DNA from: Treponema sp.
GTDB taxonomy: Bacteria > Spirochaetota > Spirochaetia > Treponematales > Treponemataceae
Assembly (NCBI GenBank): GCA_016281495.1
Contig: JAEEIU010000002.1
Span: 1 to 64,000 of the forward strand
DNA: 64,000 bases
Direction of reading: 5' to 3'
Under the pieces are notes generated by a model, which ran no database searches, had not been told where the DNA came from, and worked only from the letters and a program-made list of their open reading frames with translations. Positions 4,237 to 60,800 of the stretch are shown here, piece after piece. Position 1 is the first letter of the stretch; each line of letters begins with the position of its first letter. A program made the translations under genes and the position numbers.

Positions 4237-4253
4237 TCATGAGGAGAAAAACT

Positions 4254-6550: not shown

Positions 6551-7408
6551 ATGAAAAGAGTAATTGTTTTTGTATCACTAATCTTTTTATGTGCGAACAT
6601 ATTCTGCAAAGAAATAATCAGAGATGATATGATTGGAAAGAACAATCGATTTGAAATAAATGAAACCTTCTATTTTATTGAATTCATAAATGAATCAGAG
6701 TTTACTTTTTATTACCCCTATGGAGGTTACAATGGTAAAAACCTTCATTATACGTTAAAAAACAACAAGCTCACATTAATCAGTGAAAATGGAAAACCTT
6801 TTGATGATGATAAAATGAACAAGCTTCTTTTTCCAAAGGGGAATAAAACTGTTCTTATTTACGAAGAGAATTCAGATGACTTTTGGTGCAAGGAACTTTT
6901 TAGAAATGAGAATATCTGTTTAAGAAATTTCAAGAATAATACAGAAGTCGGTTCAAAATGCTCTTTAGATGGAACAAAAGTTATCAAGCACAATGGAAGA
7001 GAATTTGTTTTGGCAAATGAAAATTTACGATTACGTGAAAAACCGGATTTAAAGGCTGCAACAGGAACATTCAATTATCAATCATATTTCGGAACTGCAG
7101 AATCATTATTAACGGGAAAATACACATATAAAGGATATAAAGTGAACTCCTTTACCGACTATCCATTATTGTTAAAGGGCATGACCGTTAAATATGAAGC
7201 CGTAACAGTGGATCAACAAACAATCGACGGAATAACGGCACCATGGTATAGAATCGTGCTTGAAGACAACAGGGAAGAAGGTGCATGGCCTCAAAGATAT
7301 TGGGTTTTTGGCGGATATTTATCTGAAATCGATGACCCAAAAAATCCTGAATATGAAAAACAGTTAATACAGAGTTCTGTTGAGAAAGGCATTTTGGTAA
7401 AACAATGA
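6551..7408 (+). CDS. Secreted protein with SH3b-like segment
   Basis: The start at 6551 is chosen for GAGGG at 6541-6545 and because it gives a signal peptide (MKRVIVFVSLIFLCANIFC) in a 285-residue product. The Cys at the end of that segment might make it a lipoprotein. From about residue 155 the sequence ANENLRLREKPDLKAAT begins an SH3b-like fold, ending with WVFGGYLSE, as in other genes nearby. SH3b domains commonly bind cell-wall or protein ligands; the role here is unknown. The 183-bp upstream gap is gene-free. Confidence 0.7.
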   Translation: MKRVIVFVSLIFLCANIFCKEIIRDDMIGKNNRFEINETFYFIEFINESEFTFYYPYGGYNGKNLHYTLKNNKLTLISENGKPFDDDKMNKLLFPKGNKTVLIYEENSDDFWCKELFRNENICLRNFKNNTEVGSKCSLDGTKVIKHNGREFVLANENLRLREKPDLKAATGTFNYQSYFGTAESLLTGKYTYKGYKVNSFTDYPLLLKGMTVKYEAVTVDQQTIDGITAPWYRIVLEDNREEGAWPQRYWVFGGYLSEIDDPKNPEYEKQLIQSSVEKGILVKQ

Positions 7409-7428
7409 AAAGAGAATAGGGAGTAAGA

Positions 7429-8325
7429 ATGAAGAAATATTTTACATTACTTTTAACATTTTTAATGATAGGCTCAGCATTTTGTGGCGACAAAGCTTCG
7501 TTAAAATTTAGGTTTGTTAATGGAAACGTTGCCCCAGGCGAACCTATCCCAGAAAACTGCGAGAAAATATCAGTCTATAATGATCTTGATAAAATTGATT
7601 ATGTTGTAGAAAAAGAAATAGTTTTTGACGGAAGCCACATTAAACAGATAGAATTACAAAGTGACCAATTTTTTTCAGGAGTATATGAAATAATCCTAAC
7701 CCTTGACGTGGAAGGGACAAAAATATTTTCCGACATTACCGAACATAATATTGGAAGATCCCTACTTGCCCAGATTGACAACTCCTATCTTTTTAATGCC
7801 ATAATCAGAGATAAAATTACTTCAGGCTCTGTTTCAGTTTCAGGATTTACTAACATCACGCTTTTAATGAAGATAAAAGAAAATTTTGACTGCATCGATA
7901 ATACAAATATAAATTATGATGGATTTAAATTTGTAAAATCATCTTTCACGCCTGACAGCAATCAAACTGTAGATAAAAAAGACCCCATACAGGTTATGGA
8001 AGCCTTCCTGTATTACTACAAGCAAAATGATCCCCAGTGGAAAAACTATGTTTACTCTTATCCGAACCTTAGCACAGAAGACAATAGATTCATTAAAAAT
8101 ATGGAAAATAATAGAAAAAATAATTTTTCATCCATAAATCAATATGATGTTTATGTTGAAGAGGTGTTAAAACCTGCAAAAAAGCCATCTTCTTTCTTTT
8201 TCCGCAACAAAGATTATATCGATGTCTATATTCCTTTTAAACTTGAAAATCAAGAAAATACATTTATTCGATACATCGATCTTGTAATAAACAAAAAGGG
8301 AGAATATTTCGTTAAGAATTTTTAA
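7429..8325 (+). CDS. Secreted hypothetical protein
   Basis: The 298-residue product has a signal peptide (MKKYFTLLLTFLMIGSAFCG) and follows the previous gene by 20 nt with GGGAG as ribosome site, so the pair is likely one operon. The C-terminal third contains DPIQVMEAFLYYYKQNDPQWKNYV, which resembles DPSATLAAFFISYLSQTDEWKDLI in the next gene, indicating a shared paralogous domain of roughly 100 residues. No known family was recognised. The domain could be a small NTF2-like or immunity-type fold, but this is a guess. Confidence 0.7.
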   Translation: MKKYFTLLLTFLMIGSAFCGDKASLKFRFVNGNVAPGEPIPENCEKISVYNDLDKIDYVVEKEIVFDGSHIKQIELQSDQFFSGVYEIILTLDVEGTKIFSDITEHNIGRSLLAQIDNSYLFNAIIRDKITSGSVSVSGFTNITLLMKIKENFDCIDNTNINYDGFKFVKSSFTPDSNQTVDKKDPIQVMEAFLYYYKQNDPQWKNYVYSYPNLSTEDNRFIKNMENNRKNNFSSINQYDVYVEEVLKPAKKPSSFFFRNKDYIDVYIPFKLENQENTFIRYIDLVINKKGEYFVKNF

Positions 8326-8388
8326 AGCTGCAATCCGGCTTGTTGGGTAAATGAACAATGGAGCCATAATAAAACATAAGGAGATAGT

Positions 8389-9099
8389 ATGAAATTAAAG
8401 AAAACCATTATTTTAATTATATCAGCAGTTCTTTTGTTCGCTTCATGTGCTAGTGCTGAAAAGGCAAATAAAATAGACACAAACATAATCTACAAATCCC
8501 CTTCTCTATCAGCAAAACAAATCGGTTACCAAAATGAATTGGAAGCTTCAGAAGTATTAGAAATTGGTGAAAATGCAATTGTTAACGGATCCGAGTATTT
8601 TTTTTGGATCAAGATTCGCACGAAAGATGATGTTGAAGGCTGGGTAATAATGAAGAAGCGTAATAAAACGAACTCGGACAGTTATTACAACATCGAGCGA
8701 AATGGCACGAAAATTACAGCAAGCAAAAACAGTAAAGAACTTACAGGCAACGAATGGAAAGACTTTAAAGACCCTTCTGCAACTCTTGCTGCTTTTTTCA
8801 TAAGCTATTTGTCTCAGACCGATGAATGGAAAGATTTGATTGCCGACTTTGGCGATTTTGACAGCAAGGAAGAATTGATAGCCGAAAGAAACAGGCCTTA
8901 TGAAGAATTCTATGGACGAGTTGACAGTTTAAGCATTACAATCAACCCTCTGTATTTTAAAAACTACGGCAATGGGACTGCATTATACACGGTGAGCTTT
9001 GGTTTTTCATATGACGGAAATCTTGGCGCAGGAGACGATCAAGTCAGCATGATAATGGACGAAAATGGAAACTGGCTCATCGTGAAACTACCCATGTAG
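8389..9099 (+). CDS. Lipoprotein with SH3b-like domain
   Basis: The 236-residue product has a lipobox ending at Cys20 (LLFASC). Residues 30-85 look like an SH3b domain (IIYKSPSLSAKQIGY ending in EGWVIMKK). The C-terminal part shares the AFxxxYxxxxDxWKD pattern with the preceding secreted protein. The ribosome site AAGGAG lies 8 nt before the ATG. Surface location is inferred from the lipobox. The function is unknown. Confidence 0.75.
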   Translation: MKLKKTIILIISAVLLFASCASAEKANKIDTNIIYKSPSLSAKQIGYQNELEASEVLEIGENAIVNGSEYFFWIKIRTKDDVEGWVIMKKRNKTNSDSYYNIERNGTKITASKNSKELTGNEWKDFKDPSATLAAFFISYLSQTDEWKDLIADFGDFDSKEELIAERNRPYEEFYGRVDSLSITINPLYFKNYGNGTALYTVSFGFSYDGNLGAGDDQVSMIMDENGNWLIVKLPM

Positions 9100-9129
9100 A
9101 ATATGTCATATTTTTTTTTGGAGGATTAA

Positions 9130-9672
9130 ATGATACTGCTGGTTGTAGACACACAAAAAGGATGCTTTAATGAAAATCTTTATGCATTTGAAACTGTGAG
9201 GAAAAACATAAAACTGTTAATTAAAACAGCAAGAGAAAACGGTGTAGAGGTCGTATATGTCCAGCATGATGACGGTCCTGGCACTGATCTGGACAAATCT
9301 GCGGACAACTATGAAATATACGAGGACTTTGCCCCAAGAGACGGTGAACGGCGTTTTGAAAAGAATGTAAACAGCGCATTCCACCCTATGACAGGACTGA
9401 CAGAATACCTGCGTTCAAAAGGAGAAAAAGACATCATAACAATCGGAGTGTCAACAGACTATTGCATGGATGCCACAATCAAAAGTGGATTTGAAAATGG
9501 ATTCAACATATTGGTTCCTGCATACACAAATTCAACCTTTGACAATCCATATTTTGACAAGGAAACCGCCTACAAATATTACAACGAATTCATGTGGGGA
9601 AAACGTTACGCAAAAATCATCACCGTCGACGAGGCCATCCTGCTACTTCAATCAAAAAGAGTTTCAAATTAA
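9130..9672 (+). CDS. Isochorismatase-like cysteine hydrolase
   Basis: The 180-residue protein has the full cysteine-hydrolase triad of the isochorismatase superfamily: D7 in LLVVDTQKG, K78 in RFEKNVNSAF and C112 in GVSTDYCMDAT. Members hydrolyse isochorismate, nicotinamide, N-carbamoylsarcosine or ureido compounds; the short form without extra domains is compatible with a nicotinamidase-like or general amidohydrolase role. Cytoplasmic. TTGGAGG ahead of the ATG follows a run of nine T residues at the end of the upstream intergenic region. Confidence 0.85.
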   Translation: MILLVVDTQKGCFNENLYAFETVRKNIKLLIKTARENGVEVVYVQHDDGPGTDLDKSADNYEIYEDFAPRDGERRFEKNVNSAFHPMTGLTEYLRSKGEKDIITIGVSTDYCMDATIKSGFENGFNILVPAYTNSTFDNPYFDKETAYKYYNEFMWGKRYAKIITVDEAILLLQSKRVSN

Positions 9673-9680
9673 ACTGAGTA

Positions 9681-9709
9681 TAGAACTTTTAGTTCATTTT
9701 TGATAAAAT
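9681..9709 (+). promoter_or_regulatory. Promoter, TAGAAC-N17-TAAAAT
   Basis: A TAGAAC -35 hexamer at 9681-9686 and TAAAAT -10 at 9704-9709 are spaced by 17 nt. The -10 ends 6 nt before the ATG at 9716 and no purine-rich ribosome site intervenes, so the mRNA is probably leaderless. The same -35 variant recurs at 12456 and 14026. Confidence 0.6.
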
Positions 9710-9715
9710 AAAATA

Positions 9716-10234
9716 ATGGATGGAAAATTAAAAATACGTGATGCACAAATTGAAGATGCAGAACGTCTTGTTGAAATATACTCTTATTATGTCTTGAATA
9801 CGGCAGTTTCTTTTGAATATAAAGTGCCGTCTGTTGAAGAGTTCAAGGATAGAATCATAAAAGTTAAGAAAAAATTTCCGTACCTTGTATGCGAAAAAAA
9901 CGGCACTATTGTAGGTTATGTTTATGCCAGTGCCTATAGCGAACGGGAAGCATACAGCTGGACAGTTTCAACATCAATCTATGTCGATAAGGATAACCGG
10001 CGGCAAGGAATAGGTTCTTTCCTTTATGCCAACCTTGAAGAAAAGCTTAAGCATATGGGGATAAAAAACATTCTTGCTGGAGCGGCCTTTACTGAAACAG
10101 AGGATGAATATCTTACTCATGACAGCCCTAAGTTTCATGAAAAAATGGGATATATGCGTGTTGCCCAATTTAAGGAAGTCGGTAAAAAGTTCGACCGATG
10201 GTATGACCTTGTCTGGCAGCAGAAAAAGATTTAG
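9716..10234 (+). CDS. GNAT acetyltransferase, phosphinothricin-acetyltransferase type
   Basis: The 172-residue protein matches the Pat/Bar-like GNAT subgroup: IRDAQIEDAERLVEIYSYYV near the N-terminus, a VSFEY segment, YVYASAYSEREAYSWTVSTSIYV in mid-protein, the acetyl-CoA loop DNRRQGIGSFLY near residue 92 and a C-terminal YDLVW. Members acetylate phosphinothricin, methionine sulfoximine or other amino acid analogues. No ribosome binding site is visible; the start lies directly after a -10 box. Substrate specificity cannot be read from sequence. Confidence 0.85.
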   Translation: MDGKLKIRDAQIEDAERLVEIYSYYVLNTAVSFEYKVPSVEEFKDRIIKVKKKFPYLVCEKNGTIVGYVYASAYSEREAYSWTVSTSIYVDKDNRRQGIGSFLYANLEEKLKHMGIKNILAGAAFTETEDEYLTHDSPKFHEKMGYMRVAQFKEVGKKFDRWYDLVWQQKKI

Positions 10235-10318
10235 GAGGCCGAATCAAATGCTTGACTGTCTAGCCGTTGCTCTTGTATGTCCTTGCATATATTGTTAAAC
10301 TTTAACTAGAGGTGTTTT

Positions 10319-10393
10319 ATGAAAAAAAAAGTTGGAATAATAAACAGCAATAAAAATCTTTTCATGATAGAAAAAGATATTGAAGAATTGTAA
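10319..10393 (+). CDS. Orphan 24-codon reading frame, possible gene remnant
   Basis: An AGAGGTG ribosome-like site is followed by ATG and 24 codons starting MKKKVGIINSNKNLF and ending at TAA. The N-terminal hydrophobic strand followed by an S/N-rich turn is like the start of a Rossmann-type protein, so this may be the surviving 5' end of a deleted gene. The next promoter (-35 at 10380) begins inside it. Expression is unproven. Confidence 0.25.
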   Translation: MKKKVGIINSNKNLFMIEKDIEEL

Positions 10394-10409
10394 AAATGTG
10401 TTTTATAAT
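10380..10409 (+). promoter_or_regulatory. Promoter, TTGAAG-N18-TATAAT
   Basis: TTGAAG at 10380-10385 and a perfect TATAAT at 10404-10409 are separated by 18 nt. Transcription would start near 10416, leaving a leader of about 117 nt before the gene at 10533. Confidence 0.6.
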
Positions 10410-10415
10410 ATAGAC

Positions 10416-10532
10416 AACAAGATATCTGGTACTTCTGCCTTTACTTACCTTAACTGACTGCATAAGGTTTTATACCTGATATTGGAAAAATCATTATTAA
10501 GACACCCAAACTGAGGGGTCGAGGAGAAAAAA
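10416..10532 (+). promoter_or_regulatory. Structured 5' leader
   Basis: The leader can fold into a long interrupted hairpin: ATATC at 10422-10426 with GATAT at 10478-10482, GGTA at 10428-10431 with TACC at 10473-10476, and an inner CCTTA (10448-10452) with TAAGG (10463-10467). A second stem pairs GAC-CCC around 10501-10507 with GGGGTC at 10515-10520, directly against the GAGGAG ribosome site. This could be a regulatory RNA element; no known riboswitch class was recognised. Confidence 0.35.
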
Positions 10533-11096
10533 ATGAAAAAATTCTTTTTATTATTGGCATTGGTAATGGCTGGAACTTTTGTTTTTGCAAATGATTACGA
10601 ACCGGAAAAGAAAGTTACTGAATTAAATGATGATGTTGCCATGTACTTTGGAGGAATGGTTTCAAAGGGAATAGGAGTAACAGCCTTACAGAGCAATGTC
10701 TTTCCCCAAGGAAAGTCTGATATCACAATTGCATCCGCTACTGGAAAAAAGTTTGAGATAACAGGACTTAAATGCACTTCCATGGTACAGGCTTTGGATA
10801 ATGATAATAATGAAGTGGCTTACATGGTCACATTTTATACCCTAAAGAAATCTTCATTAAAAAAATTGAACAAGTTGATTAAGAAAAATCAAGTAAAGTT
10901 CTCCACCCTTATTGAAGCAATTGGTGACAAGGATTTAGATTCAGAAACAGCAGGAACAGAAGAAGAGCCTGATACGGATACTTTTTCAACACTCAGAAAC
11001 CTTCAGGTATATGATATTTTTGTAAAGCCATCAGGTGGAAAAGAGATACAGCTTCAAGTCTATCTGGAAGATTTCCAGAATGCCGAGGATTTGTAA
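10533..11096 (+). CDS. Secreted hypothetical protein
   Basis: The 187-residue product has a clear signal peptide (MKKFFLLLALVMAGTFVFAND) and GAGGAG 6 nt before its ATG. The mature part is beta-rich by eye with an acidic stretch (TAGTEEEPDTD) near residue 150. No domain was recognised. It has its own promoter and a structured leader, so it is probably regulated separately from its neighbours. It is followed by two palindromic elements before the next gene. Confidence 0.7.
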   Translation: MKKFFLLLALVMAGTFVFANDYEPEKKVTELNDDVAMYFGGMVSKGIGVTALQSNVFPQGKSDITIASATGKKFEITGLKCTSMVQALDNDNNEVAYMVTFYTLKKSSLKKLNKLIKKNQVKFSTLIEAIGDKDLDSETAGTEEEPDTDTFSTLRNLQVYDIFVKPSGGKEIQLQVYLEDFQNAEDL

Positions 11097-11110
11097 TTAT
11101 TTTTTGCGAT

Positions 11111-11137
11111 GGTCATTCCGGACTTGATCCGGAATCC
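11111..11137. repeat. Dispersed palindromic repeat, copy 1
   Basis: ATTCCGGA (11115-11122) and TCCGGAAT (11128-11135) form a perfect 8-bp stem around CTTGA. The whole 25-27 nt unit is the exact reverse complement of the copy at 18866-18891, and a variant sits at 29314. This is the pattern of a REP-like intergenic element. It is known in kind from many bacterial genomes. Confidence 0.8.
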
Positions 11138-11139
11138 AA

Positions 11140-11177
11140 TTACATGAGAAATGTATATTTTTACTTTTCTCATGTAA
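11140..11177. repeat. Perfect 12-bp inverted repeat
   Basis: TTACATGAGAAA at 11140-11151 pairs perfectly with TTTCTCATGTAA at 11166-11177, with a 14-nt AT-rich loop. It abuts the REP-like repeat. No terminal T-run follows on the + strand, so it is not a classical terminator; it may be a stabilising hairpin on the upstream mRNA or part of a composite mobile repeat. Confidence 0.6.
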
Positions 11178-11210
11178 AAATGAAGACAAAAACGTTGGAG
11201 ATTATTAAAA

Positions 11211-12431
11211 ATGAGAAAAAGATTATTGATGATTCAGTTATTATTTATTTCTTTATTTATGGCTTTTAGTGCACCAAATGTTAGTTTGAATAAGGAAATG
11301 TATGTTAAAGAGAACCTTAGATTGCGCTCCAAAGAATCTACTTCTAGTTCTATTGTTGCAGTGATGAGGACCGGCTCCAAAGTAAAGATTGTAAAATTGG
11401 GGAAAGAAGAAACAATTGATTCAATCAAAAGCAATTGGGTAAAAATCGAAGTCCTTGATGGAAAAACCAACAAAGGAGAAACCATAGCAAAGGGAACTAC
11501 AGGCTGGTGTTTTGGCGGTTATTTGGCCGATTATGTAGGAAGGTATGATTATCTTGATTTAAGCAATAATAATTTTAAGATTAAAAAAATAGACTTCAAA
11601 AACGACATAGATGCATCTGCCTGGAATAAATTAGCAGGATATTATTTTTTGGGTGGCCCACACCAGACAATTCCGGACCCAATTGAAATAGACACTCCAT
11701 GGGGCAAGGATTACGGTGGATTCAGCTTAGGCTGTAGTTCAATTTCATATGAAAATGGTATATGGAATCTTGGTGGCGACGGAGATGCGGAGATCTTTGA
11801 ATTGGTAAGCATTTCTAAGGACGGAAAGTCTTTTACCATGAAAAATGAATATTATTCACAAGTATGGAAAATTGACGGTGAGTATTTATATATCAATAAT
11901 ACAAAATATTACAAAATCACTGGACCTGATTGCTATAAAAGATTTTTAAAAGAATTTGTGCGAAAATACAACGAATCCGTTAAACCATTTATACAGAACA
12001 ATAATGAAACAACGAAAAAAATTGAAACCATCTCATATGAAATCCTGAAGGCACTTGCTGATGGAAATATAAAAGAATATTCAAAATACGTAAGCAAAGA
12101 TTTGTTTGTAAATTTAAAAATAGGTGATTATAGGGAAAAGTCTCTTTTCACATATAAAGAATTAACTGACGAATCTGAAGATGTTAAAAAAGCCTTCGAC
12201 TTTATGAAATCAGATTTATCATCTCACACAAACAACATTGACACATTACAGCCTAAGGTAAATGAATTTTTAAGAATAACAACAGAAAAATTCAAAGCCA
12301 ACTACCCTTCTGCAAATTATCTTGTTGAATATATTTTCAATGATTATGAAGCGATTGATTTATTTTTTAAGGTAGAAAATGACAAGATAATCCTCGTTGG
12401 ACTAAATGAATATTCCGTGTTTAGAAGGTAA
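11211..12431 (+). CDS. Secreted SH3b-domain protein
   Basis: The 406-residue product has a signal peptide ending at about residue 20 (MAFSA). An SH3b-like domain spans roughly residues 28-108 (YVKENLRLRSKESTSSSIVA to TGWCFGGYLADY). A middle segment (residues 140-240) resembles a small beta-barrel that senses or stores a ligand, and the C-terminal 160 residues are helical and charged. TTGGAG lies 10 nt upstream. Its SH3b domain with the TISSIKGNW/DSIKSNWV insertion closely parallels the gene at 13038. Function is unknown; an envelope role is inferred. Confidence 0.75.
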   Translation: MRKRLLMIQLLFISLFMAFSAPNVSLNKEMYVKENLRLRSKESTSSSIVAVMRTGSKVKIVKLGKEETIDSIKSNWVKIEVLDGKTNKGETIAKGTTGWCFGGYLADYVGRYDYLDLSNNNFKIKKIDFKNDIDASAWNKLAGYYFLGGPHQTIPDPIEIDTPWGKDYGGFSLGCSSISYENGIWNLGGDGDAEIFELVSISKDGKSFTMKNEYYSQVWKIDGEYLYINNTKYYKITGPDCYKRFLKEFVRKYNESVKPFIQNNNETTKKIETISYEILKALADGNIKEYSKYVSKDLFVNLKIGDYREKSLFTYKELTDESEDVKKAFDFMKSDLSSHTNNIDTLQPKVNEFLRITTEKFKANYPSANYLVEYIFNDYEAIDLFFKVENDKIILVGLNEYSVFRR

Positions 12432-12455
12432 AATGCAGCGGGTTAAATTGAATAT

Positions 12456-12484
12456 GGAACTTTTAGCTCCTTTTTGTTATGATG
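12456..12484 (+). promoter_or_regulatory. Promoter, TGGAAC-N17-TATGAT
   Basis: TGGAAC at 12456-12461 and TATGAT at 12479-12484 with 17-nt spacing lie upstream of the gene at 12519. The spacer is nearly identical to that of the promoter at 9681, apart from a few bases, suggesting common descent of these intergenic blocks. Confidence 0.55.
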
Positions 12485-12518
12485 AAAAGTGAAATAACCT
12501 ATTTTGCAGGTGTGTTTT

Positions 12519-12995
12519 ATGAAAAAGAAATTGCTTACCATTTTTATACTTTTTATTCCCTTCTTTGTCTGGACAGAAACAGTCCAAAAGCAAAAAACAT
12601 TTGATAACTGGACGGTTACTTTAAATGAAAAGGAAAAAACTCTTCAAATAATTGACTCTGACGGGACAACCAGTGTTCCTAAGGAGTATTTAGAAAAAAA
12701 AGAATCTTCTGACGAACAATCATCTGAATCAAAGAAAAGATCCATAAAAAAATTGAATGCAAAGAAAGAACGTGTGGTTATAAAGTGCATTCAAGTTACA
12801 CTCATTCATGGTCAAATTGAAGACCTTGAACTAATTTACAATTCACTAAATTCCGTTTCAGATTGCAAGAATCTAGATTTACAAAAAATGGGATTTTATA
12901 CTGGTGTCGCCAAAAGTATAAGCAAAAATTCTAAAACAGGCGAAATTACATCTCTTACTGACCTTATAATCAGCAATGATATTGAATGGGAATAG
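12519..12995 (+). CDS. Secreted hypothetical protein
   Basis: The start at 12519 is chosen because AGGTG at 12508-12512 is well spaced and the product then begins with a signal peptide (MKKKLLTIFILFIPFFVWTE). The 158-residue protein is lysine-rich with a polar low-complexity stretch (residues 60-85, many S, E, K). No family was recognised. An in-frame ATG at 12504 would put the ribosome site inside the coding region and is rejected. Confidence 0.65.
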   Translation: MKKKLLTIFILFIPFFVWTETVQKQKTFDNWTVTLNEKEKTLQIIDSDGTTSVPKEYLEKKESSDEQSSESKKRSIKKLNAKKERVVIKCIQVTLIHGQIEDLELIYNSLNSVSDCKNLDLQKMGFYTGVAKSISKNSKTGEITSLTDLIISNDIEWE

Positions 12996-13037
12996 GGTTT
13001 GTTATAGAACAACACTTACTTGAATATTGGAGGAAAT

Positions 13038-14018
13038 ATGAGAAAAACTTTTTTCATTTCAACAGTTTTATTAATTCTTTTATTCTGCTCCTGCACACCC
13101 AAAAATAAAGAAGAAGTTGAACTGAACACTATTAAAACTGAACCACAAAATACTATATCAAGCCCAACTAAAGAAACAGAAACTGAAATTCAACCTGTAA
13201 AGAAAGAATACAAAAATTATTTATCCATTACTTCCGACAAAATCTTTCTTGTAACAGATGGACCATTAAACGTAAGAAAAGAATCATCTACTACGTCTGA
13301 TATTCTTACACAATTACAGACTTTTGAAGTTGTTGAAATCTTAGAAATTGAAAAAGAGGATACTATTTCATCGATAAAAGGAAACTGGCTTAAAATAAAA
13401 AAAGAAAAGAAAGAAGGATTCATTTTTTCTGGTTATGGTTTGATCTTGAATGGGAAAAATTATATTAATAAGTTTGACGATTTTTCTAAAATATTTCCAG
13501 AAAATTGGATTGTTGATAATACAAAAAACTATTTATTCGAAGATTCTGGAGAATGTGTCGTTAGATTAGATTACTTAATTACAACTCTACAAGATCATTA
13601 TATAAATTTGAAAATATATTTAAAACCTAAAGACATGGAAAATACAGACTCTCTCATCCAGAAATATAATTTGGAATTCAAAAATTCCAACCCAAATTTC
13701 GGCATGGGAGATTCATACAAGAGAGTAATAAAATCCGAAAAATTTCAAACATTAACTTCTGACAATATTCTTTACTTTTGCGACGATTGGGGTTCAGGAG
13801 TTTCTTACGATATATTTGCTTTCTTAAGGGAAAAAGAGTTTTTAAATGATTTTGAGGCAATTCAGTTTGTCTATACAAACCTCTGGGCCAAGAACAACGA
13901 GGACGTCTATTTGATTGACAATGACTACATCAAGGAATGCAGGGAAAATGGAAATCTTGATTCAATAAATTATCAAGTTATAACAGAGATAATGCAGAGA
14001 CTGATATATAGTGAATAA
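13038..14018 (+). CDS. Lipoprotein with SH3b domain
   Basis: The start at 13038 follows GGAGG at 13029-13033. The 326-residue product has a lipobox LLFCSC (Cys19), then a Thr/Glu/Lys-rich linker of about 40 residues, then an SH3b-like domain (VTDGPLNVRKESSTTSDIL to GFIFSGYG) closely resembling that of the gene at 11211. The last 180 residues are unrelated to any family recognised. It is predicted to be surface or periplasm exposed. Confidence 0.75.
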   Translation: MRKTFFISTVLLILLFCSCTPKNKEEVELNTIKTEPQNTISSPTKETETEIQPVKKEYKNYLSITSDKIFLVTDGPLNVRKESSTTSDILTQLQTFEVVEILEIEKEDTISSIKGNWLKIKKEKKEGFIFSGYGLILNGKNYINKFDDFSKIFPENWIVDNTKNYLFEDSGECVVRLDYLITTLQDHYINLKIYLKPKDMENTDSLIQKYNLEFKNSNPNFGMGDSYKRVIKSEKFQTLTSDNILYFCDDWGSGVSYDIFAFLREKEFLNDFEAIQFVYTNLWAKNNEDVYLIDNDYIKECRENGNLDSINYQVITEIMQRLIYSE

Positions 14019-14025
14019 AACCACA

Positions 14026-14054
14026 TAGAACTTATTGCAATATTCTGTTATGAT
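14026..14054 (+). promoter_or_regulatory. Promoter, TAGAAC-N17-TATGAT
   Basis: TAGAAC at 14026-14031 and TATGAT at 14049-14054 with 17-nt spacing precede the gene at 14078. This is the third copy of this -35 variant in the array. Confidence 0.55.
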
Positions 14055-14077
14055 GAAAATTTTTATGAAGGAAAACA

Positions 14078-14515
14078 ATGGATAAAGGATTTTTTGAAAA
14101 TTGGTTCACTTGCTTGAATGATGGACTTGAAAAAATGAGCGGAGAAGAATGCAGCCGACTTTTTTCTGAATGTGCAAACTTCTGCTCCCATGATGCCCTT
14201 AAGTATTTATATTTGTCCTTGTTTAATGAATGCGGAAAGAATTTTGACAAGTTTTTCCCCAGACTATCGGAAAAGAAAGACCTTGATGGCAAAGTAATTG
14301 AACCAGGGAAAGTTTACGAATTGACTTTTACAAAATGTGGTTGTCCATTACATTCTCAGATGAATGTTGACTCCGAACGTCTATGCGAATGTTCCACCCA
14401 AAGCATGATTTGTGTTTTTGAATCTCTTGCTCCTGAAAAAGAATTTAAAATCGAACGCATTGAATCAATCCTTGTCGGTGGAGAAAAATGTATTCACAGG
14501 ATAACAATTGAATAA
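14078..14515 (+). CDS. Cysteine-rich hypothetical protein
   Basis: The 145-residue cytoplasmic protein has an unusually high cysteine count. Paired cysteines in the C-terminal half (CGCPLHSQM near residue 90 and CECS near 108) and others at the N-terminal half (CANFC) suggest a metal or Fe-S site, although this is not proven. AAGGAA lies just before the ATG. Similar small Cys-rich proteins of unknown function occur in anaerobic gut bacteria. No activity can be assigned. Confidence 0.65.
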   Translation: MDKGFFENWFTCLNDGLEKMSGEECSRLFSECANFCSHDALKYLYLSLFNECGKNFDKFFPRLSEKKDLDGKVIEPGKVYELTFTKCGCPLHSQMNVDSERLCECSTQSMICVFESLAPEKEFKIERIESILVGGEKCIHRITIE

Positions 14516-14548
14516 TAAACCAAACTAACCGCCCGGAGGTTATTTATC

Positions 14549-15238
14549 ATGAAGAAAAACACCATATTTTTATTGTTCTGTATTATAATCACTGGTTGTT
14601 ATAAAAACACACCCAAGTCAGATTTAGAAATTAATGATGTTGTACCACAAGAAACCAATAACACTGAGTTAACGGATATCCCTGATGAATTAAAACTTCC
14701 AAAAGTTGATGTTGAAAAAGAACTGGCAGAATATTTTTATACGGAAAAACCTGATTATTATGTGATTAATAATATCTTACAATATCCGAAAGTTCAGTCA
14801 GCCGATAAAATAGATCACAAACATATTTCTCATGAATTCGACGGAGCGCTAACAGATAAGAACACATTCAAATTTAAGTATAATGATGATGAAATTACCG
14901 TTGAAATTATTTGTGAATATCTTAATACATCTGTAAAACACTTTCTATTCTCTTTTGACACCCATATCGAAGCAACAAAAGGTTATTACGAATACGGAGA
15001 TGCAATCGATGCATTAAAAAACCGAAACTTTGAGACCAATTCAAAAGAAGTAAAAATCAAATCTTCTCTGAATGAAGACAAAAAGACAGGATATATCTTT
15101 TTAGACAGAATCTCAAAAACCTATGAGTCCGCACATGATATTTACGGTTCGTTTTATATAATTATATCTTCTGATGGAGACATTGAAAACCTTAAAGATT
15201 ATTTCGACAAGGTTAAAAATGAAATCTGTTATTGGTGA
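14549..15238 (+). CDS. Hypothetical lipoprotein
   Basis: The 229-residue product has the lipobox IITGC (Cys17) and a CGGAGG ribosome site 10 nt upstream. The mature protein starts with a polar linker and then a mixed alpha/beta domain with many K, D, Y. No domain was recognised. It is part of the AT-rich secreted set. Confidence 0.7.
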   Translation: MKKNTIFLLFCIIITGCYKNTPKSDLEINDVVPQETNNTELTDIPDELKLPKVDVEKELAEYFYTEKPDYYVINNILQYPKVQSADKIDHKHISHEFDGALTDKNTFKFKYNDDEITVEIICEYLNTSVKHFLFSFDTHIEATKGYYEYGDAIDALKNRNFETNSKEVKIKSSLNEDKKTGYIFLDRISKTYESAHDIYGSFYIIISSDGDIENLKDYFDKVKNEICYW

Positions 15239-15319
15239 TTTTTTAATGAAATTTAAGTTTCATATAAATATATCAATTATCATGTTGACATTCATACCAA
15301 TGCGTTTTGGAGGGGAAAA

Positions 15320-16003
15320 TTGAAAATAGGAATTATTTGTGCAGGAGATACAGAGCTTGAGCCTTTTTTGGAAAAGCTTACCGACGAATCTCCTGTTGAC
15401 AAAGCCATGCTCAAATTTCATAAATCAACTTTTGCCGGACATGAAATAACCTTTCTTTACAGTGGTGTCTGCAAGGTGAATGCCGCTATTGCTACTCAGA
15501 TTTTAATCGATGAATTTAAGGTGGATGCCGTCATCAATTCAGGAGTGGCGGGAGGAATGGATCCCAAGCTCAAAATATTTGACACAGTAATTTCCACGGA
15601 AGTTGCCTATCACGATGTTTCAGAAAACATCCTCACGGAATTCCACCCATGGATGAAATCAATTTTCTTTGATGCGGACAAAACTTTGCTTGAAAAATCA
15701 AGGACAGCCGTCAAAAACATTAAAGCAGATAGAAATATTTTCTGGGGAAGAATGGTAACAGGAGAAGCTTTTATCACCGATGACGGACGCAAGGAAATTC
15801 TTGATAAATACTCTCCCCTCTCCGTTGACATGGAAACAGCGGGCATTGCCCATGTATGTTATGTAAACAGGATTCCATTCATCGCCATAAGATGCATTAC
15901 CGACACGGCGGATCACAGCGGCGCAGAATATTTTGAGATGAACTGCAAGAAGGCATCCCAAACCGCAAGTGAAATTACCCTAGCCTTGATTGCCGAGATA
16001 TAG
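15320..16003 (+). CDS. mtnN: 5'-methylthioadenosine/S-adenosylhomocysteine nucleosidase
   Basis: The 227-residue protein cleaves MTA and SAH to adenine and the thio-ribose product, recycling methionine-pathway by-products. It has E12 in the N-terminal GIICAGDTELEP segment, the VNSGVAGG glycine-rich turn, SVDMETAGIAHVC (the purine/ribose-binding MExxA motif) and IRCITDTADH (catalytic Asp). The start codon is TTG at 15320, supported by GGAGGGG at 15310-15315 and by the expected family N-terminus. Length matches the family. It stands alone, 82 nt after the preceding lipoprotein gene. Confidence 0.85.
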   Translation: MKIGIICAGDTELEPFLEKLTDESPVDKAMLKFHKSTFAGHEITFLYSGVCKVNAAIATQILIDEFKVDAVINSGVAGGMDPKLKIFDTVISTEVAYHDVSENILTEFHPWMKSIFFDADKTLLEKSRTAVKNIKADRNIFWGRMVTGEAFITDDGRKEILDKYSPLSVDMETAGIAHVCYVNRIPFIAIRCITDTADHSGAEYFEMNCKKASQTASEITLALIAEI

Positions 16004-21072: not shown

Positions 21073-21101
21073 TAGACAAATATAGCATAATATTATAGAA
21101 T
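21073..21101 (+). promoter_or_regulatory. rnf operon promoter, TAGACA-N17-TAGAAT
   Basis: TAGACA at 21073-21078 and TAGAAT at 21096-21101 are spaced by 17 nt. The -10 ends 7 nt before the rnfC ATG and no ribosome site is present, predicting a leaderless transcript. Confidence 0.6.
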
Positions 21102-21108: not shown

Positions 21109-22465
21109 ATGAAAACGCACACATTTAAGGGCGGAATTCACCCTGATGAATTCAAGGAAATGAGCAACAAATGCCCAATAACCGATGTCTTTCCTTCTAC
21201 AAAGACAGTGACTATACCGGTTACAATGGGCGGTGCTCCCAATACCCCTGTCGTACAGGTCGGAGACAGTGTCAAGCGCGGGCAGTTGATTGCAAAAAAT
21301 GATGCCTTCATGTCCGCTCCAGTTCATTCTTCAATTTCTGGCAAGGTAAAGAAAATCCAGTCATGTCTTGTAACCGGAAACCTTGAAGTACCATGCATCA
21401 CAATCGAGGCAGATGATTCAAATGAGACAGACTTTATGCCTCCTCTGGATCCTTTTGCATGCTCAAAGGAAGACGCACTCAAGCGTATAAAAGATGCAGG
21501 AATTGTCGGTATGGGTGGAGCATCTTTCCCGGCTCACGTAAAACTGAATCCCCCCGGCAGACAAAAAGATTGACTATGTGCTTCTTAATGCAGCTGAATG
21601 TGAACCATATCTTACTGTTGACGAAAGGACCCTGCAGGAAAACCCTGACAAAATAATTGACGGCCTTAAAATCGTATGCCACATTCTTGGTGGATGTCCG
21701 GCCATCATCGTTCTTGAAAACAACAAGGAATACATAGTTCCAGAATTGAACAAGGCGATTCAAAATGCAGGCGCACAAAAACAGATTGCGGTTTCCCTTG
21801 TAAAGACAAAGTATCCCCAGGGATGTGAAAAAAACATCGTGGATGCGGTATTAAAGGTCCATGTACCCGCAGGAAAACTTCCGGCTGATGCTGGTGCGGT
21901 AATCTGCAACGTGGGAACTGTCTGTGCCATAAGCGATGCATTCAGGCTTGGCATGCCTTTAATCGACAGGGCATTGACCATTAGCGGTGGTGCAGTTGAA
22001 AAACCATGCAACATTCGTGTTCCGGTTGGCACCCTTGTGGGAGACTTGATTCCTGACGTGTTCAAGCTCAAGGAAGGCCAGACTGCAAAGATTGTGTCCG
22101 GCGGTCCGATGATGGGTTTTGCCATGACAAACGCCCAGTTTCCAATTGCAAAGGGAACAAGCGGTGTAACTTTCCTTACGAAAAATGAAACATATCTTGT
22201 TGACGAAAGCCAGTGTATAAGCTGCGGAAAATGTATCAACGCATGTCCGATGAATCTTAGCCCGGTCCTGATGGTTCGCGAAATAAAGGCAGAACATCTG
22301 GAAAAGGCAAAGAAATTCGGCCTTATGGATTGCATTGAGTGCGGATGCTGTTCCTACATGTGTCCTGCCAACGTGCGTCTTGTGCAGCACTTCCGTCTTG
22401 GAAAAATGCAGGTCAGAGCCCTTATGGCACTGGAAAAAGCCAAAGCGGCGGGAGGTGCAAAATGA
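21109..22465 (+). pseudogene. rnfC: Rnf complex subunit RnfC, frame broken at C6 run
   Basis: RnfC is the peripheral subunit that receives or delivers electrons at the NAD side of the Rnf complex. Residues 1-149 are in one frame (starting MKTHTFKGGIHP, with the GGASFPAHVKLNPP motif), then a stop is met at 21571-21573. Removing one C from the six C at 21550-21555 restores PPADKKIDYVLLNAAECEPYL and a continuous product of about 452 residues, the usual length. The downstream part has two 4Fe-4S motifs, CISCGKCINACP and CIECGCCSYMCP. Sequencing error, phase variation or a true mutation are all possible. The end overlaps rnfD (ATGA). Confidence 0.85.
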
Positions 22466-32086: not shown

Positions 32087-32115
32087 TTCACTAAATGCGA
32101 TTTTTTCTATATAAT
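32087..32115 (+). promoter_or_regulatory. gatCA promoter, TTCACT-N17-TATAAT
   Basis: TTCACT at 32087-32092 and perfect TATAAT at 32110-32115 with 17-nt spacing. The -10 ends 7 nt before the gatC ATG, predicting a leaderless mRNA. Confidence 0.65.
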
Positions 32116-32122
32116 AGCCGGC

Positions 32123-32440
32123 ATGAGTGACTCTAAAAAAACTGAAGTAAACGAAGATACTCTTGAAAAACTCCTGTATCTTTCAAGGCTTTCCCCTGAA
32201 AGCACTGACATGGCAACCCTGAAAAAGCAGGTTGATGACATTGTAGGCTATTTCGACATCCTTTCAAAATACGATGACAGCGAAAATCCTTATGACGCCT
32301 ACCCCACCACAAAGGCAGACGCACTTCGCGAGGACGAGGTTGTTCCAGGCCTTGAAATGCACGACGTAAAGAAAATAAATGAGGGACACTTCCTTGACGG
32401 ATATTTCCAGGTTCCCAAAGTACTTGGGGAGGGTGCGTGA
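32123..32440 (+). CDS. gatC: Asp/Glu-tRNA amidotransferase subunit GatC
   Basis: The 105-residue protein links GatA and GatB in the GatCAB complex that converts Glu-tRNA(Gln) and Asp-tRNA(Asn) to the amide forms. Family signatures are LEKLLYLSRLS near the N-terminus, VDDIVGYFDILSKYD in the middle and LREDEV toward the end. No ribosome site precedes the ATG, which follows the -10 box by 7 nt. The stop overlaps the gatA start (TGATG). Confidence 0.92.
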   Translation: MSDSKKTEVNEDTLEKLLYLSRLSPESTDMATLKKQVDDIVGYFDILSKYDDSENPYDAYPTTKADALREDEVVPGLEMHDVKKINEGHFLDGYFQVPKVLGEGA

Positions 32441-34574: not shown

Positions 34575-34580
34575 TTTTTT

Positions 34581-34622
34581 AATTCATAATTCATAATTCA
34601 TAATTCATAATTCTTAATTCTT
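34581..34622 (+). repeat. 7-bp tandem repeat (AATTCAT)x4 (AATTCTT)x2
   Basis: Six consecutive 7-bp units, the first four AATTCAT and the last two AATTCTT, lie between cheX and the gatB promoter. Copy number of such units can vary by slippage. Confidence 0.85.
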
Positions 34623-34638
34623 AATTGTCTTTGACCAA

Positions 34639-40597: not shown

Positions 40598-40627
40598 ATT
40601 ATACCATAAAATTAAAGATTACTTCAA
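40598..40627 (-). promoter_or_regulatory. trkAH promoter, TTGAAG-N18-TATAAT (minus strand)
   Basis: On the minus strand TTGAAG at 40627-40622 and TATAAT at 40603-40598 are spaced by 18 nt. The -10 ends 6 nt before the trkA ATG. Confidence 0.6.
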
Positions 40628-42377: not shown

Positions 42378-45302
42378 ATGGCTTGGAAAAACATGATTAA
42401 GAGATGCATTACCCTTTTACTGACATGCTTTCTTGCAATCACAAACGCACAGTCCCATGACGGCCTCATGACAGGGGAAAAAGACCTTAAGTGCATCAAG
42501 ACTGAATTTTTTGACATAATCTATCCTGAAAGCTCAAAGGAAAGTGCCGCCGAGCTCTACCTGCATGCCGACGACATCTACCGTGAGTTATGTGCCGACT
42601 ACGGAATGACTCCAACCCTCAGAATGCCTGTAACCATTACAGGGGCTCCGGAAACGTACAACGCTTATTTTTCAACATTCACATACAACCACATCATCCT
42701 TTACGACACCACCCCACAAGAGAGCCTGAATGTCTTTGAGTCAACAATTTGTGACACGTTCAAGCACGAGATGACACACGCACTAACCATAAACATGAAG
42801 AATCCGTTCTGGACTTTCATGGCAAAAGTATTCGGGGATGTTGCCATAGTCGGTGACTATCTGAACATGACCACAGCGATAAAGGAAGGTGCATCGGTTG
42901 CAGCGGAAAGCAAGGGTGGATACGGCCGCTTAAACAATCCCTATTACATGCACACTGTAAGGCAGGCAAAAATCCAGGGAACATTTCCGTCTCATGCAGA
43001 CATTATGGGTTCCAGGGACATTTATCCGAACGGCAACATGTCGTATACCTTTGGAGGCCCGTTTACCAAATGGCTGCAGGATAAATACGGCATGGAAAAA
43101 TACGCCGAATTCTGGCATGCAGGAATCAATAACGAGGCAGTGACATATCAGCTGGTATTCAGGAAGATATACGGACAAAGCATCAGCACTGCATGGAAGG
43201 AATTCCAGGAATCACTTTTTGTTCCGGAAAATATCCTTCAACTTGAAGGTGCAGATTATGTTCAGGCTGTACCGGGAACAAGCGCCAACGGTTTCCTTTA
43301 CTCTTCAATCACTGCGGGTAAAAATAAAATTGCATGGCTTGAACAAAAGACATCAACTGTATGGATGAGCGAAAAAGATGAAAATGGAAACATGAAAAAG
43401 GCAAAAAAATTCCTTAGCATGTTTTACATTGAATCAATATCACTTTCCACGGACGGACGTTATCTGGCAGTATCATATTACACCCCAAACGCGGCAGAGG
43501 CTGACTATCACATAATGGTTTATGACACGGAGAACAAAAGTCATGCCACAGTAAAAGACAGGTCTTTAAAGAATCCATTTATCATGCAGACGGAGGAAGG
43601 CTCATTCCTCTGTGCAATAAAAAACCACGGACAAAGTGAAAGCCTTGTAAAATACAGGATCATTGAAAAGGGAAACACAAAGTCAACGAAGATAAAAGGC
43701 TTGGAGGAATATTCCATCTATGATTTTCCCAGAGGCGACTACATTTATTCTCCGGTGGATTTTGGACATGGACGCATGGCCTGCATATTCAAGAAAGACG
43801 GCAAATCTCAAATAAGGATTTTTGATTCCGACATGAACTATCAGGAAATCGATTTGTCGGGAAACAATCTTTTTGTGCAGGGATTGTCTGCAAATGATGA
43901 TTCCACCCTGGTGTTCTCATGGGCAAGGATGGATACCCTTCCACGTCTTGGCCGTCTTACCGTTGCTGGGGACAGTGCAATTCTTGAGCTCAGCGGAACT
44001 GATATCTCCGGCGGCATCTATAATCCTGTTTCATTCAACGGCAAGTATTTTTATTCCGGAAATTTCGTTGACAGAACAAGACTGTTCATGCAGGATCAGG
44101 ACAAAGCGGACTTCATGCAAACTTCCGTTAAAGTCAGCCGGCACATGGGACAGGAAGCAGACAGGGAACAAAGCCTTTCCAATGCGGACGAGATTCTTTC
44201 TGATGCGAAAAAATGGAATACAATTCTTTATGGAAAAGGCATAACAGCACCCTTCACGCTCATTCAGGAATACAAGCAGACAGGAGACACAGACGAGATA
44301 GTATTTCTCGGACTTACTTGGATAAGCTCAAACCCATGGGATGGAAACCATTTTGCTTTTGGTGGCGGCATTACTCCATGGGGCAACAAAAAAGGCGGAT
44401 TCATGACCCTGATCAGAGGAGGCGGAAACAGCACGGCATTCAACTACCAGATTATTCCTTCAGTATTATTCAATAAAGACGGATTCATGCAGGCTACGGC
44501 AAGCACCACAGTCAACGCAAAATTTTATCTTGGCAATCAATTTTACATCTTGGCACAGGACAAATCCCTGCTTTTTCTTGGGCATCAGGAAACAAACAAA
44601 AACGGACTATTCATAAATGCATTTGGAAACATTGATCATTCATCAGACAACATTGATCCTGCATTTTACCTTTCGTTCAAAAACAATTTCGTACTCATGC
44701 TGTCCAACGTAAAACAAATGGGAACAGGCATCTACAACACGGGTGGATTCAGTGCCCAGCTGAACTACAACATATACTCAAGCAATTACATAGACGAAAA
44801 AGAAGGCTTTGTCAAGGGAAATTTTGAACAGAGCCTTTACCCGGTACTTAGCGTCTCAATTCCAAGGCTTCTTCCACTTGAATGCTCAAACACTCTGAGT
44901 TACAACCTTCCGTTAAAAGCGACAGCATTTTTTGCCCCTTCAAATTCAACTTTACTTGCAGCATCCTTTAATTCCGTTTTATTCTCTGCGGAAATTCAAA
45001 AGGGCCTTACTTTTTTTCCGCTATATTTTAACCGCATTACCTTGAGGGGAGAATATGCATTTCATCTTGATGACAGAAATTCAAATGTATCCCTGTTCAA
45101 CTTATATGATTCAATCAATGGCGCCCAGTTAAGCTACAAGGATTACCTGAGTTTTACAGCTACAATATCGGGAGCGATAAACACCGGTATTTTTGCCTCT
45201 GCATCCATGGTCCAGGATATTGGCGTAAGGTTCATTTATTACCCCAGGGACAAATCAAGCAAACCGTACAGGGTTTCCTTTGTTACATCTTTAAACTTTT
45301 AG
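42378..45302 (+). CDS. Large exported HEMTH-motif metalloprotease-like protein
   Basis: The start at 42378 follows GGGAG and gives a signal peptide (MAWKNMIKRCITLLLTCFLAITNA) in a 974-residue product. H130-E131-M-T-H134 is a zinc-metalloprotease motif, with EGASVAAES about 50 residues later as a plausible third ligand site. The middle (about residues 300-560) has repeated beta-propeller-like blades, and the last 250 residues are alternating strands ending in the aromatic VSFVTSLNF, like an outer-membrane barrel. It is inferred to be an outer-membrane protease or processing protein. A structured leader and terminator precede it. Confidence 0.7.
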   Translation: MAWKNMIKRCITLLLTCFLAITNAQSHDGLMTGEKDLKCIKTEFFDIIYPESSKESAAELYLHADDIYRELCADYGMTPTLRMPVTITGAPETYNAYFSTFTYNHIILYDTTPQESLNVFESTICDTFKHEMTHALTINMKNPFWTFMAKVFGDVAIVGDYLNMTTAIKEGASVAAESKGGYGRLNNPYYMHTVRQAKIQGTFPSHADIMGSRDIYPNGNMSYTFGGPFTKWLQDKYGMEKYAEFWHAGINNEAVTYQLVFRKIYGQSISTAWKEFQESLFVPENILQLEGADYVQAVPGTSANGFLYSSITAGKNKIAWLEQKTSTVWMSEKDENGNMKKAKKFLSMFYIESISLSTDGRYLAVSYYTPNAAEADYHIMVYDTENKSHATVKDRSLKNPFIMQTEEGSFLCAIKNHGQSESLVKYRIIEKGNTKSTKIKGLEEYSIYDFPRGDYIYSPVDFGHGRMACIFKKDGKSQIRIFDSDMNYQEIDLSGNNLFVQGLSANDDSTLVFSWARMDTLPRLGRLTVAGDSAILELSGTDISGGIYNPVSFNGKYFYSGNFVDRTRLFMQDQDKADFMQTSVKVSRHMGQEADREQSLSNADEILSDAKKWNTILYGKGITAPFTLIQEYKQTGDTDEIVFLGLTWISSNPWDGNHFAFGGGITPWGNKKGGFMTLIRGGGNSTAFNYQIIPSVLFNKDGFMQATASTTVNAKFYLGNQFYILAQDKSLLFLGHQETNKNGLFINAFGNIDHSSDNIDPAFYLSFKNNFVLMLSNVKQMGTGIYNTGGFSAQLNYNIYSSNYIDEKEGFVKGNFEQSLYPVLSVSIPRLLPLECSNTLSYNLPLKATAFFAPSNSTLLAASFNSVLFSAEIQKGLTFFPLYFNRITLRGEYAFHLDDRNSNVSLFNLYDSINGAQLSYKDYLSFTATISGAINTGIFASASMVQDIGVRFIYYPRDKSSKPYRVSFVTSLNF

Positions 45303-45318
45303 GCATATAGTTTATAAT
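45290..45318 (+). promoter_or_regulatory. trxB promoter, TTTAAA-N17-TATAAT
   Basis: TTTAAA at 45290-45295 and perfect TATAAT at 45313-45318 are spaced by 17 nt and overlap the end of the preceding gene. The -10 ends 6 nt before the trxB ATG with no ribosome site. Confidence 0.6.
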
Positions 45319-51213: not shown

Positions 51214-51242
51214 TTGCCAATATCTATTTCCTTTGTTACAAT
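51214..51242 (+). promoter_or_regulatory. Promoter, TTGCCA-N17-TACAAT
   Basis: TTGCCA at 51214-51219 and TACAAT at 51237-51242 are 17 nt apart, and the -10 ends 7 nt before the ATG at 51250. No ribosome site lies between. Confidence 0.55.
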
Positions 51243-52364: not shown

Positions 52365-52393
52365 TTGACGATTTTCCATGTTGGTTTTATAAT
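52365..52393 (+). promoter_or_regulatory. Promoter, TTGACG-N17-TATAAT
   Basis: TTGACG at 52365-52370 and perfect TATAAT at 52388-52393 with 17-nt spacing. The -10 ends 6 nt before the ATG at 52400. Confidence 0.7.
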
Positions 52394-57857: not shown

Positions 57858-60800
57858 ATGAAAACAGTTTTCATAAACTCTGTTAAGGAATGCCTCGAGG
57901 GAAACATCAATAACCTCAAGGCATTCTTTATTTTTTCTACGGACATTGCCTGCAGGACATGGGCAGACTGGTGTGTAATCAACGGGAATACAAAAGCCGT
58001 CGCCATGGAACGCTTTATGGCATGGGACAATTTCAAGGGCACATATTTACGTGCAAAAAAAGAAGGCCAGACTGCCATTCCGTCATTGCTTAGAAAACTA
58101 TTCATCCAGGATTTTATCCGCCAGAATGCAGAAAAAGGCAATGATGACCCATCAAAACTCAGGAAAATAATAGCACCGGAATTTGCCGACACGGCAGGGG
58201 CATTTGCAGATTACCTTAGCAAAAATCTTTCTTCATTAAATCTGTGGAACACCCGCATGGAGATGTACAGGGATGATTACGGAACCTGGGATCTTGAGGA
58301 CAAGGATTACAAGATTCTTTATGAATCATACAAGAGCTTTCTTGAAAAGAACAATCTTTTTGAGCCGTCCTGGGTTCAGGATGTAAAGCTTGAAGAATCT
58401 GACATTGAATTCTACATAGTGTTTCCAGAACTGCTTGAAGATTTTGAAGATTACGAGGAGATACTGGCAGAATCAAACAATGTCACTGTATGCATGCTGA
58501 ATCCCGACATACAGGATCCAAAGGCCTATGAATATCCTGATTCGCGCTCAGAGCTCAGGCAAACCATATTACAGATAATCGATCTTGTGCACAACCAAAA
58601 GCTCTTTGACTGGACCGACATTGCATTGAGTGTTCCAGATTTGGACACATACCGTCCTTATCTTGAACGTGAGCTTGAATTATATGACGTGCCTTTTGTA
58701 ATCAGGGCAGGCATTCCGCTTACCAAAAACAGTTCGGCAAGAATTTTTGAATCAATACAAAACTGCCATCAGACAGATTTTTCCTATGACAGCGTACGGA
58801 ACCTTCTGCTTGACGAATCCATTCCGTGGAAAGACAAAACAGTCCTGACGTTAAACTATACCGAAGACGGAAAAGCCATTCAAAAGAAAATTGAAGTGGA
58901 CCTTACAAAAACAAGGGAATCACTTATACGACACGGCAATGAACTTCACTGCATGTTCCCATACGAAGATAAAGATGACGAGGGAAAGAAAAAAAAGATT
59001 GATCCATGGATAAAGTCTCTTCATGCACAGAGGCGCATGCATGCTTTACAGGGCCTTACGGAAGAAGAACACAAGGATGAACAGGAAATTGCCCTTTACA
59101 CTGCAATTAAAAACTGCGTGTCAAATTTCTACCGCAGGGAAAACAACTCGGCAGGATTTGATGCAATCCTTCAGTTTTGGTTTCAGTTCAAGGAGCATTT
59201 TATAAACGACAGCGATTTTACTTCTGATTCAAACAGGATTTTGAGCCGCTGTATCGTTCACCTTCAGGAAATGCGCAATCTGGAAAAAGACTTTTGCATT
59301 ACCAACAAAATGGAAATTCCATCTCCCTTTGATTTTTTTGTAAAGGAATTGGGTCAGAAAAAATACATCCCGCAAACCGACCAAAGGGGCATTTCGATTT
59401 TCCCCTACAAGCTTTCTGCAGAGGCATGTTTTGCATGTCAATTTGTCATAAACGCAAGCCAAAAGCAAATCGACATCCAATACAAGAGGCTCGATTTCCT
59501 TAATGCAGCAAAGAGGTCCAAGCTGAACCTCATCAACACAAAAAACGGAAACCAGATTTCCAGAATCTTTGCATACCTTTATACCATTTCACCAAACAAG
59601 AAGGCTCCTGAGCTAATTCACATTTCAAGTGCGGTACAGTCCTTTGACGGTTTTTCCATACCACACAGCTGCCTGTCTGTAAGCGATAAAACAACAGAAA
59701 TGGATGCAGGCGATTATCTTCTGAACGAAAAAAAATGGATTTATTCCGGATGCAGGGAAAAGTTTGACACAAGCACACTCCCGCGCAATGAAATAGAAAA
59801 CCTGATTCGCTGGAAAAAAATTGCATCAAAACATTCAGGAAAAACAAACAGGACCGTCTTAACCAGCAGGGCAGAATTCTCATTGATGCAAAACAAGGAC
59901 TATTCGATTAAAAGCGGAATTCAGGAATATGTAGAGCAAATCCAATTCCTTTCTGAAAACAAGAGGGATAAAAACGTTCTTGCATTCATTGAAAACGAAA
60001 AAAACAATCTGGAAAAATACAGTACACCACCTTATGATTCACTGCCAAAAGTTTCTGCACGGGGCGAACTTGAATATTTTTTTCCATGTCCAAGGCGATG
60101 GACTTTGTCGCGTCTGTTAAGGCTCAAGGCTGACTCTCTGGAAATTGATTTGCTTAAAAACTATGAAATGGGACAGCTTAACCATGACATCCTTAAAGAA
60201 TTCATGAGGCAATATCTTGGAACCACCCTTCCCCATTTTAATCAAGTGAACAATTCTTTTGTCATGGAAGGAAAGGATGTAACTGATGCGGTCAGAAATC
60301 AGATTCATGAAGCAGCGGAAAAATCAATAAACAGGTTTTCAAAAAGCCCGCTTGTAAAAAAACTCTTGGACGCCCAGCAAAGGCAGATTTCGGATTCCAT
60401 CTATGACTTTCTATGCATCCTTTTGATTCCATATGGCAGCCTTAATGCAAAAGGCGAAAGGAAGGATATTGCGGGAATAGGGAACTGTACGGTTTATGGA
60501 GTTGAAAACAAATGCATCACCCCTTCGGAAGACGAATCATACTTATACTTTGGCGTAATTGACTGTCTTTTAAAGTCACCCAGGATGAATGATTCAGAGA
60601 CAGAGGGCTGGATAATCATAGATTACAAATCTACTTCCAGTTCGATTCCAGATCCAGATGAAATCAATGTGGACGAAAACGGCCTGCTGCACGATTTTCA
60701 GATGCCGATGTACATCAGTCTTGTACGCCCACAGTCAGAGGAAAAGCAGATTGATGCGGCATATTTTTATTCAATCAAAATAGAACAAAAACAAAAGAGA

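Follow-up and report, generated by a model that had tools for sequence, protein, structure and literature searches.

Uptake of leaderless mRNA through a 5'-terminal AUG is established in bacteria other than the Treponema considered here. Among 18 genomes of Spirochaetes, 6 were predicted by Zheng et al. (2011) to contain leaderless genes, at 1.8-6.9% of genes (PMC3160421). The TA-led genes of that study share with this Treponema a TANNNT-type -10 element roughly 12 nt upstream of the start codon (a gap of 6 nt) and the lack of a Shine-Dalgarno (SD) site. Its text names no Treponema, whereas here the share of genes is estimated at 7-9%, conservation is followed gene by gene, and the spread of the arrangement is counted over 393 genomes.

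The same phylum holds Leptospira interrogans, for which differential RNA sequencing placed a primary start site at most 10 nt from the start codon in about 440 genes, roughly half of them with a leader shorter than 2 nt (PMC5243855). In that organism RNA was measured and no general promoter motif was found, whereas in this Treponema the -35/-10 motif is clear and the arrangement is read from DNA. Mycobacterium and Deinococcus are cited in the Leptospira report as having many genes with a transcription start at the start codon. Their leaderless share is larger, while this Treponema uses the canonical TTGACA-17-TATAAT in DNA that is mostly 40-46% G+C in the stretch analysed. Among the papers that could be searched, none gave a transcription-start map for Treponema.

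The leaderless arrangement is therefore already known in other bacteria and predicted for the phylum; that it is widespread and conserved in this rumen-type Treponema, even at housekeeping genes, is well supported. What is added to prior knowledge is conservation gene by gene, exchange with SD sites, and an uneven spread in the phylum. Start-site annotation, the design of expression vectors, and studies of regulation usually assume an SD site.

Promoters of eight genes in the window

The window is the whole 64,000-nt stretch of DNA that was analysed. A sequence-only reading had described eight genes in it in which 6 or 7 nt separate the -10 element from the ATG, with 17-18 nt to a -35 box and no SD site. 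All eight arrangements can be read directly, with the GNAT gene at 9716 as the weak case, and no SD site is present upstream of any of the eight ATGs. The elements are as follows.

9681-9686, plus strand: -35 box TAGAAC of the GNAT gene, poor, read from the sequence
9704-9709, plus strand: candidate -10 TAAAAT of the GNAT gene, weak; ATG at 9716, gap 6 nt, score 6.6
21073-21101, plus strand: rnfC promoter TAGACA-17-TAGAAT; ATG at 21109, gap 7 nt
32087-32092, plus strand: gatC -35 box TTCACT, 17 nt 5' of the -10, read from the sequence
32110-32115, plus strand: gatC -10 TATAAT, gap to the ATG 7 nt, read from the sequence
32123-32440, plus strand: gatC coding sequence, predicted to be leaderless; Pfam PF02686
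34075-34103, plus strand: cheX promoter TTGATT-17-TATACT; ATG at 34110, gap 6 nt
40598-40627, minus strand: trkA promoter TTGAAG-18-TATAAT; ATG at 40591, gap 6 nt
45290-45318, plus strand: trxB promoter TTTAAA-17-TATAAT; ATG at 45325, gap 6 nt
51214-51242, plus strand: promoter TTGCCA-17-TACAAT of gene 51250; ATG at 51250, gap 7 nt
52365-52393, plus strand: promoter TTGACG-17-TATAAT of gene 52400; ATG at 52400, gap 6 nt

On direct reading, the -35 boxes of the seven genes other than GNAT are fair to good, and the combined -35/-10 score of these genes is 9.6-13.3. Upstream of the GNAT gene the DNA is AT-rich and TAAAAT is repeated, which with its low score leaves the case ambiguous. Among the 55 genes of the window, seven score at least 8 at gaps of 6-8 nt, where about 0.1 is expected by chance, and a scan of all 55 found no gene with the signature beyond those already listed. 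Pfam supports the identities of GNAT, RnfC, GatC, CheX, TrkA, and the flavoprotein fold of TrxB; 51250 and 52400 matched no Pfam family. By our own reading, the N-terminus of 51250 is lipoprotein-like (MKDKLHSFYIFASAAFIFLLASCS), with a signal peptide directly after the predicted start.

The arrangement is best explained by a sigma-70-type promoter with a -10 element that would serve from 6-8 nt before the ATG. RNA polymerase is expected to start about 7 nt after the -10 element. With that element ending 6-8 nt 5' of the ATG, the first transcribed base would be the A of the start codon or lie no more than 1-2 nt from it. The resulting mRNA would have neither a 5' leader nor an SD site, and ribosomes would bind its 5'-terminal AUG directly, probably as 70S ribosomes or as 30S subunits assisted by IF2, as in other bacteria. 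Downstream genes would use SD sites. The gene that follows gatC at 32440 has the SD-type site GGGGAGGG upstream, and the gene at 34712 (gatB in the sequence-only reading) has GGAGG.

Spacing of -10 elements across the genome

The window and other stretches of the same genome together give 1.62 Mb with 1143 genes, 1099 of which begin with ATG. The genes were called by codon usage, and starts were picked blind to the upstream sequence, with no ribosome-site information. Among the ATG genes, a TANNNT hexamer that differs from TATAAT at no more than one position ends at a gap of 6 nt in 55, of 7 nt in 26, and of 8 nt in 12, whereas most gaps between 10 and 44 hold about 10 each. The exact hexamer TATAAT is present 21 times at gap 6 and nine times at gap 7, against 0-6 times at other gaps. 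A combined score of at least 8 is reached by 51, 20, and 12 of the 1099 genes at gaps 6, 7, and 8, against 0.78 per gap in shuffled upstream sequence; the scoring matrices lean on gap-6 genes, while the TANNNT and TATAAT counts used consensus hexamers only. The excess over shuffled sequence is about 81 genes, or 7.3%, at this threshold and 8.6% at a looser cut. Of the promoters that could be recognised no further than 65 nt from a start, about 30% are close-spaced. A -10 element at 6-8 nt precedes 93 of the 1099 ATG genes and one of the 39 GTG/TTG genes, a class with few members. The same pipeline applied to 300 kb of E. coli K-12 gave no peak, with a -10 element at 6-8 nt in 2 of 245 genes.

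The hexamers are accompanied by other promoter elements. A -35 box with at least four matches is found in 61% of gap 6-8 genes, compared with 21% at random positions, and in 46 of the 57 gap 6-8 genes that have such a TTGACA-like box it lies at exactly 17 nt. These facts bear on the idea that the TATAAT-like hexamer is local AT-richness that avoids RNA structure, with the real promoters further upstream. In several phyla, genes without an SD site show an AT-rich bias at about -20 to -10 that does not have to stem from promoters (PMC5397173). AT-richness would, however, spread over neighbouring gaps, whereas the hexamer peaks at a single gap and is phased with a -35 box at 17 nt. This explanation was ruled out by the narrow peak in spacing together with the phasing of the -35 box, and we consider it extremely improbable.

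Genes with a close promoter also differ from the rest in what surrounds their starts. An SD site precedes 3% of gap 6-8 genes, as against 50% of all genes; SD-led genes, at about 50%, are the larger class. Gap 6-8 genes appear to head transcription units because they are often divergent or first on their strand (55%, versus 25% of SD genes) and seldom lie close behind a co-directional gene (4% have one at most 20 nt upstream, versus 33% of SD genes).

Sequence-only start calls are often off, and the blindness of the caller to ribosome sites leaves room for mis-called start codons, with true starts downstream and ordinary leadered genes. Mis-called starts would not yield a peak at one spacing, however, and gap 6-8 genes show a normal coding signal that begins at codon 2. 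In-frame starts further downstream with an SD site occur in 16% of these genes compared with 18% of SD genes, N-termini align among orthologues, and the start of 51250 stands immediately before its lipoprotein-like signal peptide. Wrong starts were ruled out by the coding signal and by the lack of any excess of later SD-preceded starts, and we regard them as a very improbable source of the pattern.

The exact position of the transcription start is less constrained. A pyrimidine (C or T) stands at -1 in 57 of 61 gap-6 and 24 of 25 gap-7 promoters, compared with about 55% of all genes. A sharp initiator signature at +7 was sought in the leadered promoters of this genome and none was seen; some other constraint close to the ATG could thus account for part of the preference for a pyrimidine at -1. 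Very short leaders of 1-5 nt, or start sites scattered around the ATG, would fit the genes at gaps of 8-9 nt and the 1-2 nt by which start-site choice normally varies, as well as Leptospira, where roughly 440 start sites lie at most 10 nt from the start codon and leaders shorter than 2 nt come from about half of these (PMC5243855). Against such leaders, the mode lies at gap 6, with the pyrimidine at -1 and an A at the predicted +1. We see them as a real possibility, though an unlikely one. By promoter geometry, leaders of 1-3 nt look the same as none, and at any single gene extra upstream promoters may supply leadered transcripts.

Conservation in orthologues and spread in the phylum

If transcription starts at the ATG, the spacing should be kept in orthologues as well. 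The gatC, trkA, cheX, and rnfC loci were compared in 39 genomes of the genus, and trxB in 80 spirochaete contigs. A -10 element at 6-8 nt was found in 26 of 30 genus orthologues of gatC, 19 of 30 of trkA, 8 of 13 of cheX, 14 of 23 of rnfC, and 43 of 80 spirochaete orthologues of trxB. The flanking DNA at these five loci has diverged although the 6-8 nt gap is kept. With the five genes pooled, 110 of 176 sequences have the -10 element at gaps of 6, 7, or 8 nt (41, 47, and 22); none of the remaining gaps between 3 and 39 holds more than seven. For 51250 and 52400, the arrangement is kept in the two nearest relatives (L001 and L002). The genome belongs to a Treponema, with Treponema MAGs as the closest named relatives at 86-87% TrxB identity; one of these MAGs came from yak rumen.

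An SD site is present in 27 of the 66 sequences that lack a close -10 element and in 2 of the 110 that have one (Fisher P ~1e-11, the species not being independent); SD-bearing examples for trxB are L063, L069, L074, and L080. Because a close -10 element and an SD site exclude each other across orthologues, it appears that the mode used at a given gene can differ between species.

In other parts of the genome, genes with the signature match dnaX, murC, aspS, lysS, cardiolipin synthase, an aroD-aroE fusion, cheR, an S41 protease, and an XPB helicase. The signature is therefore not limited to accessory genes, and the earlier suggestion that core genes take part holds. The wider proposal, that leaderless translation is routine in this lineage, finds support in the genome-wide peak at gaps 6-7, the phased -35, the depletion of SD sites, the -1 pyrimidine, and the orthologue spacing. 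Its routine use is very likely, although for a minority of genes, about 7-9%. Judged from promoter geometry, enrichment, and conservation, from which both the transcription start and the mode of translation are inferred, we are highly confident that leaderless initiation stands as a minority mode at about 1 gene in 12, mostly genes that are first in their unit, with housekeeping genes included.

If this is true of about 1/12 of genes, among them those for tRNA-dependent amidation (gatC), DNA polymerase III tau, MurC, and AspS, the organism would offer a test bed for the balance between leaderless and SD-led initiation. These organisms would also suit the question of why a gene that is leaderless in one species is SD-led in a related one, or the reverse.

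To follow the arrangement through the phylum, occurrences of TTG-N20-TANNAT-N6-ATG in 393 of its genomes were compared with those of a control in which N6 is lengthened to N12. In the genus of this Treponema the N6/N12 ratio is 4.5, and N6 exceeds the control in 49 of 49 genomes. Counts of N6 versus N12 are 46 vs 11 and 42 vs 11 in T. socranskii, 48 vs 13, 41 vs 11, and 28 vs 15 in T. bryantii, and 24 vs 10 in T. vincentii. Two other genera of the family have ratios of 3.7 and 2.2. Beyond the family, where the spread is read from pattern counts, the ratio is 8.1 in another family of the order (f2), 4.0 in a family of the class (f12), 1.9 in f29, and 1.2-1.3 in f38 and f49. In f6, a family with genomes of 0.9-1.9 Mb, it is 1.05 and the signature is absent. 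In genome size, f6 resembles Borreliaceae and f29 Brachyspira, which may be what they are. One genome of 26% G+C (G065) has a slight peak only.

A bolder reading, which we hold tentatively and think rather doubtful, is that leaderless initiation is ancient in the class Spirochaetia and maintained by selection. It would have been kept at particular housekeeping genes (gatC, trkA, rnfC, and trxB), would switch with SD sites between species, and would have been lost in one small-genome family (probably Borreliaceae); the genes may form a co-regulated set tied to the state of ribosomes or initiation factors.

Two further layouts were seen among the orthologues. In trxB of T. bryantii and similar genomes (L019, L022, L028, L035, and L043-L045), a TACAAT-like -10 element ends 10-11 nt before the ATG with a GGAG-like SD site between them, an apparent intermediate between the leaderless and SD-led forms. 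In the -35 region of gatC (L175-L204), TTCCATAAA, TTCACTAAA, or TTCCCTAAA often stands in place of TTGACA across species; these recurrent sequences are perhaps a conserved regulator site.

Other features of the window

Within the window, rnfC is split into two open reading frames in different frames, 21109-21573 (the N-terminal domain) and 21578-22465 (the rest). In a near-identical relative (G398) it is one open frame of 457 codons, so the break is due either to a frameshift or to faulty assembly. Between cheX and the gene at 34712 lies a heptanucleotide tandem repeat, TAATTCA in 6.7 copies (34580-34626), about 90 nt 5' of the latter's ATG; its length may vary, which might alter expression. 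The region 4000-16000, which contains the weak GNAT case, has a G+C content of 30-35%, compared with about 40-47% elsewhere, and is possibly acquired DNA. At 57858-64000, a PD-(D/E)XK nuclease protein of 1070 aa is followed by a large overlapping open reading frame that reads like a UvrD/AddA-type helicase, and the two probably form an AddAB-like pair.
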